Origin: Bifidobacteriaceae bacterium
GTDB lineage: Bacteria; Actinomycetota; Actinomycetes; Actinomycetales; Bifidobacteriaceae
Direction of reading: 5' to 3'
Assembly (NCBI GenBank): GCA_022651005.1
Contig: JALCQD010000002.1
Span: 1 to 64,000, forward strand
DNA: 64,000 bases
The translations under genes and the position numbers were made by a program. Each line of letters begins with the position of its first letter. The first letter of the stretch is position 1. Under the pieces are notes generated by a model. That model ran no database searches, had not been told where the DNA came from, and was given only the letters and a program-made list of their open reading frames with translations. Shown one piece after another: positions 48,147-52,885 of the stretch.

Positions 48147-49529
48147 ATGACCACAGAATTTACTCTCTCCCAAATCCGCGACCGCGTCGATGAGCAGTGG
48201 GATCACGCTGTTGATCTGCTCAAGCAGAAAATCGCGCTGAAATCCGTTTCCGCACTGGGAATCACCGCGGACCACATGAAGGAATCGGCCGAGTTCGTGG
48301 CCAACGAACTCGCGGCCTTGGGCGTTGACACCCGCGTGGTGCAGTCCACGAATCCTGATGGCACACCTGGCGCGTGGGAGGTTGTTGGCTCTCGTATCGT
48401 TGATGCCGCGGCTCCGACGGTGCTTTTGTACGCGCATCACGATGTGCAGCCCGTTCCCGACGCCAGCGCGTGGGACACGGATCCCTTCGTCGGCACTGAG
48501 AAGGACGATCGTCTCTACGGCCGCGGTGCCGCGGATGATGGCGGTGGCATTGCCATTCACGCGGGTGCGCTGGGAGCTTTGGGCGATGAACTTGGCGTCA
48601 ACATTCGCGTGTTCTTCGAGGGCGAGGAGGAGATGGGCTCGGAGAGCTTCATCCCCTTCATCACAGCCCATCGTGATGATTTCGAGGCAGACGTCATCAT
48701 TGTGGCGGACTCGGGCAATTGGTCGGAATCCGTTCCCAGCCTCACGACCTCGTTGCGAGGTAATGCCGACATGGACGTGTCGTTGCGTGTGCTCAAGCAT
48801 CCCGTGCATTCGGGCCAATTTGGTGGCCCGGTTTTGGATGCGAACACCGTTGCCGCGATGCTCATCGCGTCGATGTATGACGCTTCTGGGAACTTGATTG
48901 TTGAGGGTCTCGACTCGCAGGAGCCAGTGGGCGGCTTGCAGCAGGATTTGGACGAGGCCACATATCGCAGGGATTCCTCCGCTGTTGACGGTCTCGTTCT
49001 GGCAGGTTCCGGAACTCTGGCGTCGCGGTTGTGGGTGAAGCCGAGCGTGACGGTGATTGGCTTCGACGCACATCCCGTGGAAGGTTCCTTCAACGTGCTC
49101 GCAGATTCCACACGCTTCCGTCTTTCGCTGCGCACTGCTCCCTCGCAGGATCCTGTGGAAGCTCTCGACGCATTGAAGGCTTTCTTGACCGCACACGTGC
49201 CGTTTGGGGCCGAGATCAGTTTTGCCAACGAAGATGCCGGCAAGGGGTGGGCGATGGATGCCAGCTCTGCCGTGGTGCACGAGGCTGAGCGCGCGATGGG
49301 CGAGGCCTTCGATACCGAACCCATCAACAAGGGTGAGGGTGGCTCCATTCCTTTCATTCCGGAACTGCAGAAGCTGTTCCCCTCCGCCAAGGTGCTGGTG
49401 ACCGGCCCGGAAGACCCGAAGGCGAATGCTCACAGCCCCAACGAGTCGATCTCGCTGCCTGGCCTCAAAAAGAACATTGTCACTGAGGCGTTGCTTCTGG
49501 CCCGACTCCCGCATATTTCCCTCGACTAA
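48147..49529 (+). CDS. M20-family metallopeptidase (dipeptidase)
   Basis: This 460-residue di-zinc hydrolase has zinc/catalytic motifs AHHDVQP, GRGAADDGGG, FEGEEEMGS (catalytic Glu pair) and ADSGN, with HSPNE near the C terminus. The lid/dimerisation domain (about residues 210-340) contains KHPVHSGQFGGP. It resembles dipeptidases of the DapE/CNDP group and would act on small peptides in the cytoplasm; there is no signal peptide. ATG 48147 follows AAAGGTGGGG. A hairpin at 49582-49616 follows the gene and precedes the TPP riboswitch. Confidence 0.92.
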   Translation: MTTEFTLSQIRDRVDEQWDHAVDLLKQKIALKSVSALGITADHMKESAEFVANELAALGVDTRVVQSTNPDGTPGAWEVVGSRIVDAAAPTVLLYAHHDVQPVPDASAWDTDPFVGTEKDDRLYGRGAADDGGGIAIHAGALGALGDELGVNIRVFFEGEEEMGSESFIPFITAHRDDFEADVIIVADSGNWSESVPSLTTSLRGNADMDVSLRVLKHPVHSGQFGGPVLDANTVAAMLIASMYDASGNLIVEGLDSQEPVGGLQQDLDEATYRRDSSAVDGLVLAGSGTLASRLWVKPSVTVIGFDAHPVEGSFNVLADSTRFRLSLRTAPSQDPVEALDALKAFLTAHVPFGAEISFANEDAGKGWAMDASSAVVHEAERAMGEAFDTEPINKGEGGSIPFIPELQKLFPSAKVLVTGPEDPKANAHSPNESISLPGLKKNIVTEALLLARLPHISLD

Positions 49530-49581
49530 AGTGGCAAATTTCTAACAGGTCGAAGAAGTTCGCCGCCTGTTGTACCATCGA

Positions 49582-49616
49582 CACCGACACGGGAGCTACC
49601 GTGCCGGTGCCTTTTT
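49582..49616 (+). terminator. terminator-like hairpin between the M20 gene and the TPP riboswitch
   Basis: CACCGACACGG (49582-49592) pairs with CCGTGCCGGTG (49599-49609) except for one A-C mismatch, and TTTTT follows. It could end the peptidase transcript or form part of the riboswitch leader (see findings). Confidence 0.7.
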
Positions 49617-49618
49617 GT

Positions 49619-49699
49619 TCGGGTGCCGACGCAGTGGCTGAGAGGAAGCACACGCTTCGACCGATTGAACGTGGGTCTGGATAATGCCAGCGCACGGAC
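49619..49699 (+). promoter_or_regulatory. TPP (thiamine pyrophosphate) riboswitch
   Basis: The THI-box core is present in order: CGGGTGCC (49620-49627), GGCTGAGAGG (49636-49645), GAACGTG (49667-49673), and TCTGGATAATGCCAGCG (49676-49692). Because it lies 70-150 bases before ykoE, it is expected to reduce YkoEDC production when TPP is abundant. No T-run terminator lies between it and the gene, so translational control is more likely. An alternative pairing GCACGG (49692-49697) with CCGTGC (49716-49721) is available. Confidence 0.93.
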
Positions 49700-49767
49700 G
49701 TCTTCTCGCAATTACCCGTGCCACCACAGGGAACGCACCGAGCGCTCCTCTACGGAAAGGCACAAAA

Positions 49768-50385
49768 ATGGTTTCAAATATTATCGATAAGCATCTGCCA
49801 CACTCAAACAAGTGGCGCGTCATTGACATCGTCGTCGCATCCATCATCGCAGTCGCCTCGGGAGTCATCTTCTGGGCGTGGGATCTGGTGAGCACGGCGC
49901 CCCTCGCGCTGTTCGCTCCCGTGGCTCCCGGCTTCGAAGGCCTTCTCAACGGTTTCTGGCTCTTTGGCGGCCCGCTTGCCGCAATCATCGTGCGTAAGCC
50001 GGGTGCTGCATTCTATGCCGAAATTCTTGCCGCATTCCTCGAACTGACCTTCGGCAACCAGTGGGGTATCGGCGGTTCGCTCATCGTGGGTATCGTACAA
50101 GGACTTTTTGCCGAAATCGGGTTTGCGATATTTGCCTACAAGGTGTGGAACATCGGCTCCACCATGCTTTCCGGAGCCCTCGCCGGCGTGGGCTGCTGGC
50201 TGTACTACTTCTTCACCAACCCGGGTTTGGGATTCCTGGGTCAGTACGGCGTCATCTACCTGCTCACCTCCATCGTCTCCGGCGTGGTGCTCTCCGGCAT
50301 CGTTGTGTGGCTGCTGTACAAGGCCATTGCGGCGACCGGCGTCCTTGACCGCTTCGAGTCGGGTCGTACTCAGGTCGAGGTCTGA
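49768..50385 (+). CDS. ykoE: YkoE, substrate-binding S component of thiamine-related ECF transporter
   Basis: This 205-residue integral membrane protein has about five or six helices, with motifs (LFGGPLAAIIVRKPGAAFYAE and FGNQWGIGGSLIVG) typical of YkoE. YkoE is the S subunit that with YkoD and YkoC imports hydroxymethylpyrimidine/thiamine precursors. ATG 49768 follows GGAAAGG; the upstream ATG at 49684 falls in the riboswitch and is rejected. It is controlled by the TPP riboswitch, and its stop overlaps the start of ykoD (TGATG). Confidence 0.93.
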   Translation: MVSNIIDKHLPHSNKWRVIDIVVASIIAVASGVIFWAWDLVSTAPLALFAPVAPGFEGLLNGFWLFGGPLAAIIVRKPGAAFYAEILAAFLELTFGNQWGIGGSLIVGIVQGLFAEIGFAIFAYKVWNIGSTMLSGALAGVGCWLYYFFTNPGLGFLGQYGVIYLLTSIVSGVVLSGIVVWLLYKAIAATGVLDRFESGRTQVEV

Positions 50386-51995
50386 TGATCGCACGTGATA
50401 CGGCGACGGCGACTCTGCCGCTCTCCTCTTCCGCCGCGCAGGTCAGCGCGCACGGCTGGGGATGGCGGCATTCTGGGCGCAAGGATTTTGCGCTGCGCAA
50501 TGTGAGCTTTGACATTCATCCCGGTGAGCGCGTGTTGCTCTTGGGGGCCTCAGGTGCTGGAAAATCAACGCTGATGGCCGCGATGGCAGGTGTTCTTGGC
50601 GGTACCGACGAGGGCGAGCAAGAAGGGTCCCTGAGCGTCGATGGCCTCGATGCTCGCGCTGCCCGTGGCCATGTTGGTCTGGTGTTACAGGATCCGGATT
50701 CGCAGACGATTCTCGCGCGCCTCGGCGATGATGTGGCCTTTGGTTGCGAAAACCTGGGGTTGCCTCGTGACGAGATTTGGCGCAGGGTTCGTCACGCCCT
50801 CGATGTTGTGGGGCTTGGTGGCATATCTCTTGACCATTCCACGTCGCAGCTTTCAGGAGGGCAACGGCAGCGTCTGGCACTTGCCGGAGCGCTCGCGATG
50901 CAGCCGGGACTGCTGCTGCTCGACGAGCCGACAGCCAATCTTGATCCAGCCGGCGTGCGCGAAGTGCGCGACGCTGTGCGCCGCGTCCTCGATGCCACCG
51001 GGGAAACGCTCGTTGTGGTGGAACATCACGTCGACATCTGGCTGCCGCTGGTGGACCGCGTCATTGTGGTGGCGGGGCAGTCCTCGGAAGGTTTGGGGGA
51101 GGGCATTGTCGCCGACGGGAGACCCGAAGAGGTTTTCGACCGACTCGGTGCCCAGCTGGCCGCCGCCGGAACATGGGTGCCGGGGCGCCAATTGCCGGAT
51201 TTTTCGGCGGTGGCAGGTAATGAGCGCACTGAAAATTCCGCAGGATCAGCCGATGACTCCGCATATTCTGATTCCTCACATCGATCGCGCACGGTGCTTT
51301 CGACGCATGATCTCAGTTTCGGCAGGGACTCTCAGGCGCTGGGAGCCGGCCTCAACCTCGAGTTTCACTCGGGCGAGGTCGCAGCGCTCATGGGGCCCAA
51401 CGGCGCCGGCAAAACGACGCTCGCACTCACCCTTGCCGGATTGCTCGCTCCGATCAGTGGGACGGTTGACTATCATGGCGATATTTCACGTGGTGTAGGC
51501 GATGCGGATGGCGCGGATGCGTCGAGCCGAAGAATCGTGAATGAGCCCATTGCATGGCGCAGCCGTGATTTGCTGGGACGTATTGGCATGGTGATGCAAG
51601 AGCCGGAGCACCAGTTTGTGAGTTCCAGCGTGCTCGACGAGGTGATGGTGGGACCGCGATCCATGGGACGCAGCGAGGACCAGGCGCGGCATGATGCGGA
51701 AGAATTGCTGGAACAACTGGGGCTGCGCCGATTCGGCCCGGCCAACCCCTTTACGCTGTCAGGGGGAGAAAAGCGCAGACTGTCGGTCGCGTCAATGCTG
51801 GCTGCGGCACCGCAGGTAGTGGTAATGGATGAGCCCACTTTCGGCCAGGACTTCACCACCTGGACGGCGATGGCGCGCCTTATTGCACGGATTCGGGACG
51901 AGGGGAAAGCAGTGATTCTTGTGACGCACGACGAAGATCTTGTGACGACGCTTGGTGCGCGCCGCATTATGTTCGCGGAAGGAGCGCAACGATGA
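50385..51995 (+). CDS. ykoD: YkoD, dual ATPase of ECF transporter
   Basis: This 536-residue protein has two fused ABC ATPase domains: Walker A GASGAGKST and GPNGAGKTT, signatures LSGGQRQR and LSGGEKRR, and Walker B LLLLDEPTA and VVVMDEPTF. The linker between domains (about 275-305) is Ser/Asp-rich. The fusion of two ATPases in one chain is characteristic of YkoD-type ECF modules. The start overlaps the ykoE stop by one base, and ATGA links it to ykoC, so all three are translated together under the TPP riboswitch. Confidence 0.93.
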   Translation: MIARDTATATLPLSSSAAQVSAHGWGWRHSGRKDFALRNVSFDIHPGERVLLLGASGAGKSTLMAAMAGVLGGTDEGEQEGSLSVDGLDARAARGHVGLVLQDPDSQTILARLGDDVAFGCENLGLPRDEIWRRVRHALDVVGLGGISLDHSTSQLSGGQRQRLALAGALAMQPGLLLLDEPTANLDPAGVREVRDAVRRVLDATGETLVVVEHHVDIWLPLVDRVIVVAGQSSEGLGEGIVADGRPEEVFDRLGAQLAAAGTWVPGRQLPDFSAVAGNERTENSAGSADDSAYSDSSHRSRTVLSTHDLSFGRDSQALGAGLNLEFHSGEVAALMGPNGAGKTTLALTLAGLLAPISGTVDYHGDISRGVGDADGADASSRRIVNEPIAWRSRDLLGRIGMVMQEPEHQFVSSSVLDEVMVGPRSMGRSEDQARHDAEELLEQLGLRRFGPANPFTLSGGEKRRLSVASMLAAAPQVVVMDEPTFGQDFTTWTAMARLIARIRDEGKAVILVTHDEDLVTTLGARRIMFAEGAQR

Positions 51996-52885
51996 GTGAT
52001 GTTTCCACGTCTCTTCCGTCCTCAACTGCAGCCTTGTCTGCTGCGCGCTCGGCAGCGTCACCCGAGACGGTGGTGGTCACCGCACGCTCAGTCCGCGTGG
52101 AACCGGCGCATTCCTCCTCGGAGTCCTGGTTCATTCAGCGCATTAATCCAGTGAGCAGATTCATCGGTGCTCTGCTGATGAGCCTGCCGATGTTCATTAC
52201 GCTCGATGTGGTGTCCGCCTGTACGGCGCTCGGCCTTGAGCTTGTGCTGCTTTGGATTGGCGGGATTAATCCACTCCGTGTGCTGAGGCGCACCTGGCCC
52301 GTGTGGATTGCGGCCGTTGGGGGTTTCCTCACCGTGTTTCTCTATGGCAAGGCGTCAGGAGACGTGTATTTCCACTGGGGAATCATCGATATCACGCAGG
52401 GCTCCGTGAGCCTGAGCATTGCTACCTTTGCCCGCGTGGGAGCCGTTGCAATGCCGTCTGTGATCCTCGCCCTCGGCCTCGATCCCACGGATCTTGCGGA
52501 TGGCTTGGTGCAGCTGCTGCATCTTTCGCCGCGCTTCGTATACGGGGGACTCGCCGGATTGCGCATGATGACGCTGCTCAAAGAGGATTGGCATGCTCTT
52601 GGTCTGTCGCGGCGCTCGCGCGGGTTGGGAGACGGCGGCCGAGTGCGCGCTGTGGCGACGCAGTCGTTCAATCTCTTAGTGCTCTCGATTCGCCGTGCCA
52701 CGAAATTGGCCACGGCGATGGAAGCCCGAGGATTCGGGGGAGATACCGACCGCTCAGCGGCACGTGTGTCGAAGGTGCATGCCGTTGATTGGATCTTTTA
52801 TGCCATTGCGCTTGCCATTCCAGTTGTGGCATTGAGCGCAGCAGTGGTGACGGGGAATTGGCATTTCGCCTTCGGCAGTGTGTAA
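51992..52885 (+). CDS. ykoC: YkoC, EcfT-type transmembrane component
   Basis: This 297-residue membrane protein has about 45 polar N-terminal residues before the first helices. The coupling region SRRSRGLGDGG and ATAMEARGFGG contain the Ala-Arg-Gly-type motifs by which EcfT proteins contact ATPases. It completes the YkoEDC importer. The extra N-terminal Ser/Ala-rich leader is longer than usual. A later in-frame start is possible but ATG 51992 is supported by the ATGA overlap with ykoD. Confidence 0.9.
   Translation: MSDVSTSLPSSTAALSAARSAASPETVVVTARSVRVEPAHSSSESWFIQRINPVSRFIGALLMSLPMFITLDVVSACTALGLELVLLWIGGINPLRVLRRTWPVWIAAVGGFLTVFLYGKASGDVYFHWGIIDITQGSVSLSIATFARVGAVAMPSVILALGLDPTDLADGLVQLLHLSPRFVYGGLAGLRMMTLLKEDWHALGLSRRSRGLGDGGRVRAVATQSFNLLVLSIRRATKLATAMEARGFGGDTDRSAARVSKVHAVDWIFYAIALAIPVVALSAAVVTGNWHFAFGSV

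Follow-up and report, generated by a model that had tools for sequence, protein, structure and literature searches.

The closest described relatives of the element studied here are the TPP riboswitches of the THI element family (Rfam RF00059), with their core motifs CTGAGA, GAAC and UAAUGCCAGCG and arms P2 to P5 with an optional P3a. Extended P3 arms have been published, for example for Klebsiella pneumoniae thiC in the accessible part of PMC12632268, and the accessible part of PMC2258182 describes translational OFF riboswitches of the sequestor/anti-sequestor type, in which ligand breaks the anti-sequestor and the ribosome-binding site is sequestered. The ykoEDC genes are placed under a THI-box in the available portion of PMC5037267. 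A paper on Bifidobacterium breve promoters names, in its accessible text, one TPP riboswitch, at a thiamine synthesis operon (PMC5746004), and an account of TPP regulons, whose actinobacterial groups are Corynebacteriaceae and Mycobacteriaceae, does not contain the string 'bifidobacteri' in its accessible main text (PMC3766115). A literature search combining TPP riboswitches and Bifidobacteriaceae found nothing, and no paper describing the expression platform reported below was found in a search beyond whose reach lay most subscription literature, including a comparative study of thiamine regulation from 2002.

Here, we describe a TPP riboswitch in the window, a stretch of 64,000 nucleotides from a Bifidobacteriaceae bacterium (contig JALCQD010000002.1). 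Like RF00059 members, it has the family's core motifs, arms P2 to P5 with P3a, and a putative thiamine transporter downstream; unlike them, it scores below the family cut-off (48.8 against 54.3 bits), its P2 is reduced to CGG:CCG, its P1 has 3 bp and its P3 is long. The window's P3 is lengthened by a stem insert, as in the extended-P3 riboswitches of the accessible part of PMC12632268, and differs from those in carrying a T-run at its loop and, probably by chance, a complement of the aptamer 5' edge. The mechanism predicted here from sequence resembles the scheme set out in the accessible part of PMC2258182; its specific strands, CACGGG, CCCGTGCC and GGCAC, distinguish it from the systems described there. 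Our verdict is that the locus is probably an ordinary TPP riboswitch, translational in action and well conserved, with a long P3, whose 5' end had been misplaced in a preliminary description made from the letters of the window.

Methods

The 90 loci compared comprise the window, a genome of the same genus (G002) and 88 others of the family, chosen among the matches listed, with some genomes giving two. They derive from 31 loci (L004-L034) and 60 further regions, from which L086, a second copy of the region of L005, was dropped before counts were made; L085, which is without the 5' block, is the miss in counts of 89/90 and is absent from counts over 89. The alignment behind covariance model R1 took 59 sequences from the 85 loci that have the switch strand, leaving out the loci of this genus (L004, L005), those with a P3 longer than 22 letters, and identical sequences. 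Hexamers were counted as -10-like at a match of at least 4/6, with A2 and T6 required. Start codons were verified as in frame in the 79 parsed loci only, one of them mis-parsed, and six loci outside these 79 do carry AAGGCAC before a start codon. Folding energies were compared in 78 of the 79 parsed loci; for L018, GGTTT was wrongly taken as the ribosome-binding site, so its OFF energy is without the sequestor. Outside the family, 14 regions were picked from the higher-scoring R1 matches, and a family member (L153, from genome G048) was also fetched.

Results

The riboswitch lies between a peptidase gene and the genes of a transporter:

48147..49529, plus strand: M20 peptidase gene, upstream (Pfam PF01546)
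49768..50385, plus strand: ykoE-like S component of an ECF transporter (Pfam PF09819, 131.6 bits; no match in an NCBIfam search)
50385-51995: double ATPase, next after the S component (Pfam/NCBIfam)
51992-52885: CbiQ-like T component, after the ATPase (Pfam/NCBIfam)

Pfam and NCBIfam label the downstream transporter genes as parts of cobalt-type ECF systems, and the order of the S, A and T genes is that of ykoEDC. The name ykoE or ykoEDC rests on homology and gene order, and the product is by homology a putative thiamine transporter; with ECF S, A and T components downstream, the riboswitch is linked to transport genes of the kind that TPP riboswitches accompany. A search for relatives in genome contigs gave two named ones, the closer being Bifidobacterium moraviense (56% identity). 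An M20 C-terminus lies upstream of the aptamer in 38/89 loci, many loci having only about 500 upstream bases. Between the M20 stop and the aptamer, an inverted repeat (AACAGG...CCTGTT, inner CGAA/TTCG, 49544-49571) is without a T-run and spans, by eye, the expected -35 region. Two more TPP riboswitches occur in the same genome (L001, G000:C5:13605-13738; L003, G000:C2:179805-179891), both below the Rfam cut-off; read by eye, they precede what we take to be a thiM-like and an ABC permease-like gene, respectively.

The aptamer has the following parts:

49586..49596, plus strand: conserved aptamer 5' strand GACACGGGAGC, with P1 (GAC), P2 (CGG) and the first P3 bases (89/90 loci and R1 alignment)
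49595..49638, plus strand: lengthened P3 arm, a closed hairpin (-22.0 kcal/mol, z -2.88)
49639..49699, plus strand: aptamer core, TGAGAGG with P3a, P2', P4 and P5 (R1, fold, and covariation in P3a, P4 and P5)
49645-49649/49654-49658, plus strand: P3a (covariation)
49661-49663, plus strand: P2' CCG (R1 alignment, fold)
49670-49673/49693-49696, plus strand: P4 (covariation)
49677-49680/49687-49690, plus strand: P5 (covariation)
49700..49702, plus strand: P1 3' strand GUC, partner of GAC at 49586-49588 (invariant in 59/59 aligned relatives; free MFE)

The 5' boundary is set by conservation, by model R1 and by folding. Among the 90 sampled ykoE upstream regions, 89 have an aptamer that opens with GACACGGG[AG]GC or a near variant; written as the pattern GA[CT][AT]CGGG[AGT]G[CG], this block reads GACACGGGGGC in 46, GACACGGGAGC in 32 and a near variant in 11, and in all those 89 a P3 arm of 7-89 nt and then CTGAGA come next. 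R1 matches the window at 49574-49722 with 88.9 bits, aligning GAC to 49586 and treating the rest of P3 as an insertion, and gives 89.3 bits on G002 and 84.9 bits on the B. moraviense locus L065, which stands outside both model and counts. The free MFE structure of 49586-49704 is the full outer aptamer (-47.5 kcal/mol), and G002 folds in the same way (-45.6 kcal/mol). The conserved core of RF00059 is present, with CTGAGA in J3/2, the UAAU(G/A)CCAGCG loop and P5, and the P2-P3 and P4-P5 arms. The preliminary description had begun the riboswitch at 49619 and placed a hairpin with a U-run upstream of it; the 5' arm of that hairpin holds the aptamer 5' strand (49586-49596) and its T-run falls at the P3 loop, so the start looks to have been drawn about 30 bases too far downstream. 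Rfam errs similarly: its RF00059 match covers 49609-49714 (E 1.3e-8, 501 bases searched) and scores below the cut-off because an internal look-alike, TTCGGGTGCC (49618-49627), is taken as the 5' strand, and for that low score a default Rfam scan of the window reports three tRNAs only. RF00059 exceeds its gathering score in 138/189 family genomes, the cut-off being a score limit and not a biological feature.

The P3 arm measures 41 nt in the window and 38 nt in G002, within a range of 7-89 nt, and reaches at least 41 nt in 4/89 loci. Four T of the T-run fall in its predicted loop (49613-49620), and the fifth pairs beside the loop. Among arms of at least 24 nt, 24/25 are closed hairpins, with a median z of -3.3. 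Over the 59 aligned sequences, 98.1% of aptamer cells are paired, against at most 45.1% for slid versions; 10/21 pairs change on both sides (6.5 in shuffles, with 4/500 reaching 10), and the covariation score is 0.264 against 0.139 in shuffles (0/500 as high). This support is located in P3 (one pair), P3a, P4 (one pair) and P5. P1, of only 3 bp, and P2 show no variation in the alignment, and the anti-sequestor and sequestor described below show hardly any across relatives, so these four helices rest on conservation and not on covariation.

Just before this corrected edge lies a candidate promoter element:

49573..49578, plus strand: TACCAT, putative -10 element of a promoter belonging to the riboswitch itself (matching at 4/6 and lying 7 nt ahead of GAC)

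It had been argued that a terminator abutting the riboswitch leaves no room for a separate promoter, a premise that fails because it was drawn from the wrong 5' edge. A -10-like hexamer ends 6-11 nt before GAC in 79/89 loci, at 7-9 nt in 73 of them, compared with 6.2% of 4450 control positions; that of G002 is TATCAT. This spacing to GAC predicts a transcription start at about 49585-49587, at the aptamer's first base. By eye, the -35 element matches poorly, at about 3/6 with a spacer of 17 nt, and a pattern scan for promoters saw none at the TACCAT site.

Three strands, one at the aptamer 5' edge and two downstream of the aptamer, would form the expression platform:

49588..49593, plus strand: CACGGG, anti-sequestor partner of 49715-49720 in the ON state (98.6% of cells paired in 59 relatives)
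49715..49722, plus strand: switch strand CCCGTGCC (CCCGTG in 85/90 loci)
49754..49763, plus strand: Shine-Dalgarno region GGAAAGGCAC, whose GGCAC (49759-49763) pairs with GTGCC (49718-49722) as the sequestor of the OFF state

The letters named in the preliminary description (CCGTGC at 49599-49604, GCACGG at 49692-49697, CCGTGC at 49716-49721 and the T-run at 49612-49616) are all in place, and the strands differ in how well relatives keep them. CCGTGC at 49716-49721 is part of a genuine switch strand, CCCGTG being found downstream of the aptamer in those 85 loci. Most relatives could also pair this strand with the aptamer 3' edge GCACGG (82.5% of cells across six columns, of which one is never paired), less consistently than with the 5' edge CACGGG. 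The copy at 49599-49604, proposed as a further partner, is there in the hairpin's 3' arm and is not conserved: between the 5' block and CTGAGA, CCGTGC occurs in the window alone and CCGTG in 4/89 loci (L004, L013, L014, L120). Without prompting, RNAalifold joins the 5' edge (CGGG) to the switch strand (CCCG) in all 59 sequences, and CACGGG and CCCGTG occur together in 80/89 loci.

A GTGCC:GGCAC pairing before the start codon is found by strict pattern in 76/85 switch-strand loci, and the other nine, read by eye, keep it, six being exact with a different base before and three (L016, L033, L110) paired through G-U. The loop between switch strand and GGCAC is 11-90 nt in the 79 parsed loci. The locus thus has both marks of a translational platform, a strand complementary to the Shine-Dalgarno sequence that relatives keep and a mutually exclusive anti-sequestor, CACGGG:CCCGTG. 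The OFF fold (aptamer plus sequestor) falls below the ON fold without ligand in 0/78 loci, the median gap being 4.4 kcal/mol, for which ligand binding could pay; for the window the values are -68.8 (ON), -66.3 (OFF) and -70.6 kcal/mol (free MFE), and the leader's free MFE structure mixes parts of both states. In four relatives of one genus (L079-L082), CACGGGG recurs after the switch strand and could also pair with CCCGTG. Four ykoE leaders (L083, L084, L105, L116) have the aptamer and are without the CCCGTG strand; in L083 and L084 the aptamer 3' edge runs directly into GGAAAGG, suggesting direct sequestration.

Beyond the 90 loci, L065 shares the 5' block and the switch strand and has AAAGGCAC ahead of ATG, which speaks for the outer-aptamer reading. 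In the genus g12, 14 ykoE loci (L154-L167) of seven genomes gave no R1 match and no 5' block, which would limit the spread of the switch; these are seven small genomes (0.6-0.9 Mb), each with two ykoE homologues side by side and no TPP riboswitch match at them. Neither a ykoE nor an R1 match turned up in G001, a 76%-complete genome of the same genus as the window. R1 matches occur in 138/198 genomes sampled from the order; among the matches listed, most outside the family are much weaker, and we take them for TPP aptamers in general. Read by eye, six loci of other families (L140, L141, L142, L144, L145, L148) combine CACGGGAG[CT] and CCCGTGCC with a ribosome-binding site of the GGCAC type ahead of the start codon, three (L139, L147, L152) have a partial platform, and five (L143, L146, L149, L150, L151) have no CCCGTG in the stretch read.

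The preliminary description was right that a strong hairpin stands at the site it gave:

49582..49616, plus strand: hairpin with T-run, a terminator-like fold, complete only in RNA starting upstream of about 49582

The stem has 10 pairs (49582-49586/49605-49609 and 49588-49592/49599-49603; span 49582-49609), followed by CC and then TTTTT (49612-49616), with an energy of -17.7 kcal/mol and a z of -3.63 that 0/200 shuffles equal. This energy holds for RNA starting at 49580; RNA from 49586 keeps only -8.3 kcal/mol, so the terminator-like fold is complete only in upstream-initiated RNA, and the remnant no longer adjoins the T-run. A pattern scan of 48500-50500 saw two terminator-like sites against 2.1 +/- 1.6 in shuffles. 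Between the -10 hexamer and CTGAGA, such a site occurs in the window alone among 89 loci, and shuffling the same 89 stretches in 20 rounds gives a mean of 0.35 (max 2); G002 has CAAAAG where the window has CTTTTTG, and is without a terminator-like site.

A conserved hairpin at the 5' edge was considered and rejected: when this stretch was folded for all 89 loci, the window came first (-17.7 kcal/mol) against a median of -7.0, and G002 fourth (-11.9, level with the fifth), with other pairings and without a T-run. A stand-alone peptidase terminator ahead of the riboswitch is likewise rejected as delimited, since the conserved aptamer strand lies within the hairpin's 5' arm. Near the promoter (-150..+45), terminator-like sites occur in 15/89 loci against 9.85 +/- 2.4 in shuffles (20 rounds, max 15), a weak excess. 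Hairpins ending in T-rich tails lie over or next to the riboswitch promoter in three M20-linked loci (L008, L070, L079).

Discussion

Alongside the computed conservation, structure, 5' boundary and energy ordering, we infer a transcription start, TPP binding and a translational read-out, and consider it very probable that the locus is a single translational TPP OFF-switch with its own promoter at the aptamer 5' edge, controlling ykoEDC-type thiamine transporter genes. The RNA would start at about 49585-49587, right at that edge. When TPP is absent, CACGGG (49588-49593) would pair with CCCGUG (49715-49720), blocking P1 and P2 and leaving the ribosome-binding site free. When TPP is present, the aptamer would close through P1 (GAC:GUC), P2 (CGG:CCG), the long P3, P3a, P4 and P5, freeing CCCGUGCC, whose GUGCC would then pair with GGCAC at the ribosome-binding site, and the sequestered site would lower ykoE translation.

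The suggestion that the hairpin is part of a switching structure and not the peptidase terminator holds insofar as its sequence belongs to the switch; the hairpin does not stand upstream of the riboswitch, and since its sequence is that of the riboswitch itself, the 'terminator' amounts to the sensor's 5' strand plus a lengthened arm. We regard the hairpin as incidental to a long P3 arm that by coincidence begins with bases complementary to the aptamer 5' strand, because it is found in 1/89 loci, a level that shuffles can give, and because G002 is without the T-run. Against such a chance origin speak the significance of the fold against shuffles and its energy, the lowest of the 89 loci at that position. 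It is conceivable, if rather unlikely, that the fold works as a terminator in read-through RNA only, with M20 transcripts forming the complete hairpin and ending at the T-run and promoter-born RNA folding P3. The drop in hairpin energy between RNA from 49580 and RNA from 49586 would suit such a role, as would the predicted start inside the hairpin's 5' arm, which would leave the outer stem missing, and the pattern scan shows this hairpin as the sole terminator-like site from the M20 stop to the aptamer. One sequence would then insulate the switch from upstream transcription and serve as ligand-sensor arm, an economical insulation of a switch. The T-run and arm are not conserved, however, not even in G002, the single occurrence among 89 loci lies within the range of the shuffles, and two C separate the stem from the T-run. 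Moreover, 29/38 M20-linked loci are without a terminator-like site in the scanned stretch, so insulation is no general need.

Placing the aptamer in the register of Rfam and the preliminary description, from about 49617 with GUUC/GGAC as P1 and TTCGGGTGCC as P2-P3 and with a separate M20 terminator before it, appears highly improbable. Rfam does give it 48.8 bits, CGGGTGC resembles the 5' strand, and R1 restricted to 49598-49800 still finds this register with 77.7 bits; yet the inner CGGGTGCC, though it resembles the outer strand fairly well, scores 11 bits worse than the outer register, which reaches its 88.9 bits despite the P3 insertion. With the inner P2 forced, the fold is also 11 kcal/mol worse (-36.3 kcal/mol), the conserved GACACGGGAGC would be left unexplained, and the pattern scan shows no promoter-like site between hairpin and aptamer. 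We give next to no credence to the hairpin as a TPP-responsive transcription attenuator that terminates when TPP is bound. Hairpin and aptamer are indeed mutually exclusive, the 5' arm being common to both, but the T-run would be transcribed before the aptamer core exists, so that ligand would come too late, and the outer arm is absent from RNA starting at 49586. The hairpin is moreover not conserved (1/89 loci), and the conserved translational platform would already account for control.

The reading as a translational OFF-switch with its own promoter brings a corrected 5' boundary to a riboswitch that Rfam scores sub-threshold and mis-registers, and a warning that what looks like a hairpin beside a riboswitch can be part of that riboswitch read in the wrong register. 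For the family, the boundary, the position of the putative promoter and the predicted expression platform hold across the sampled ykoE leaders and partly beyond.
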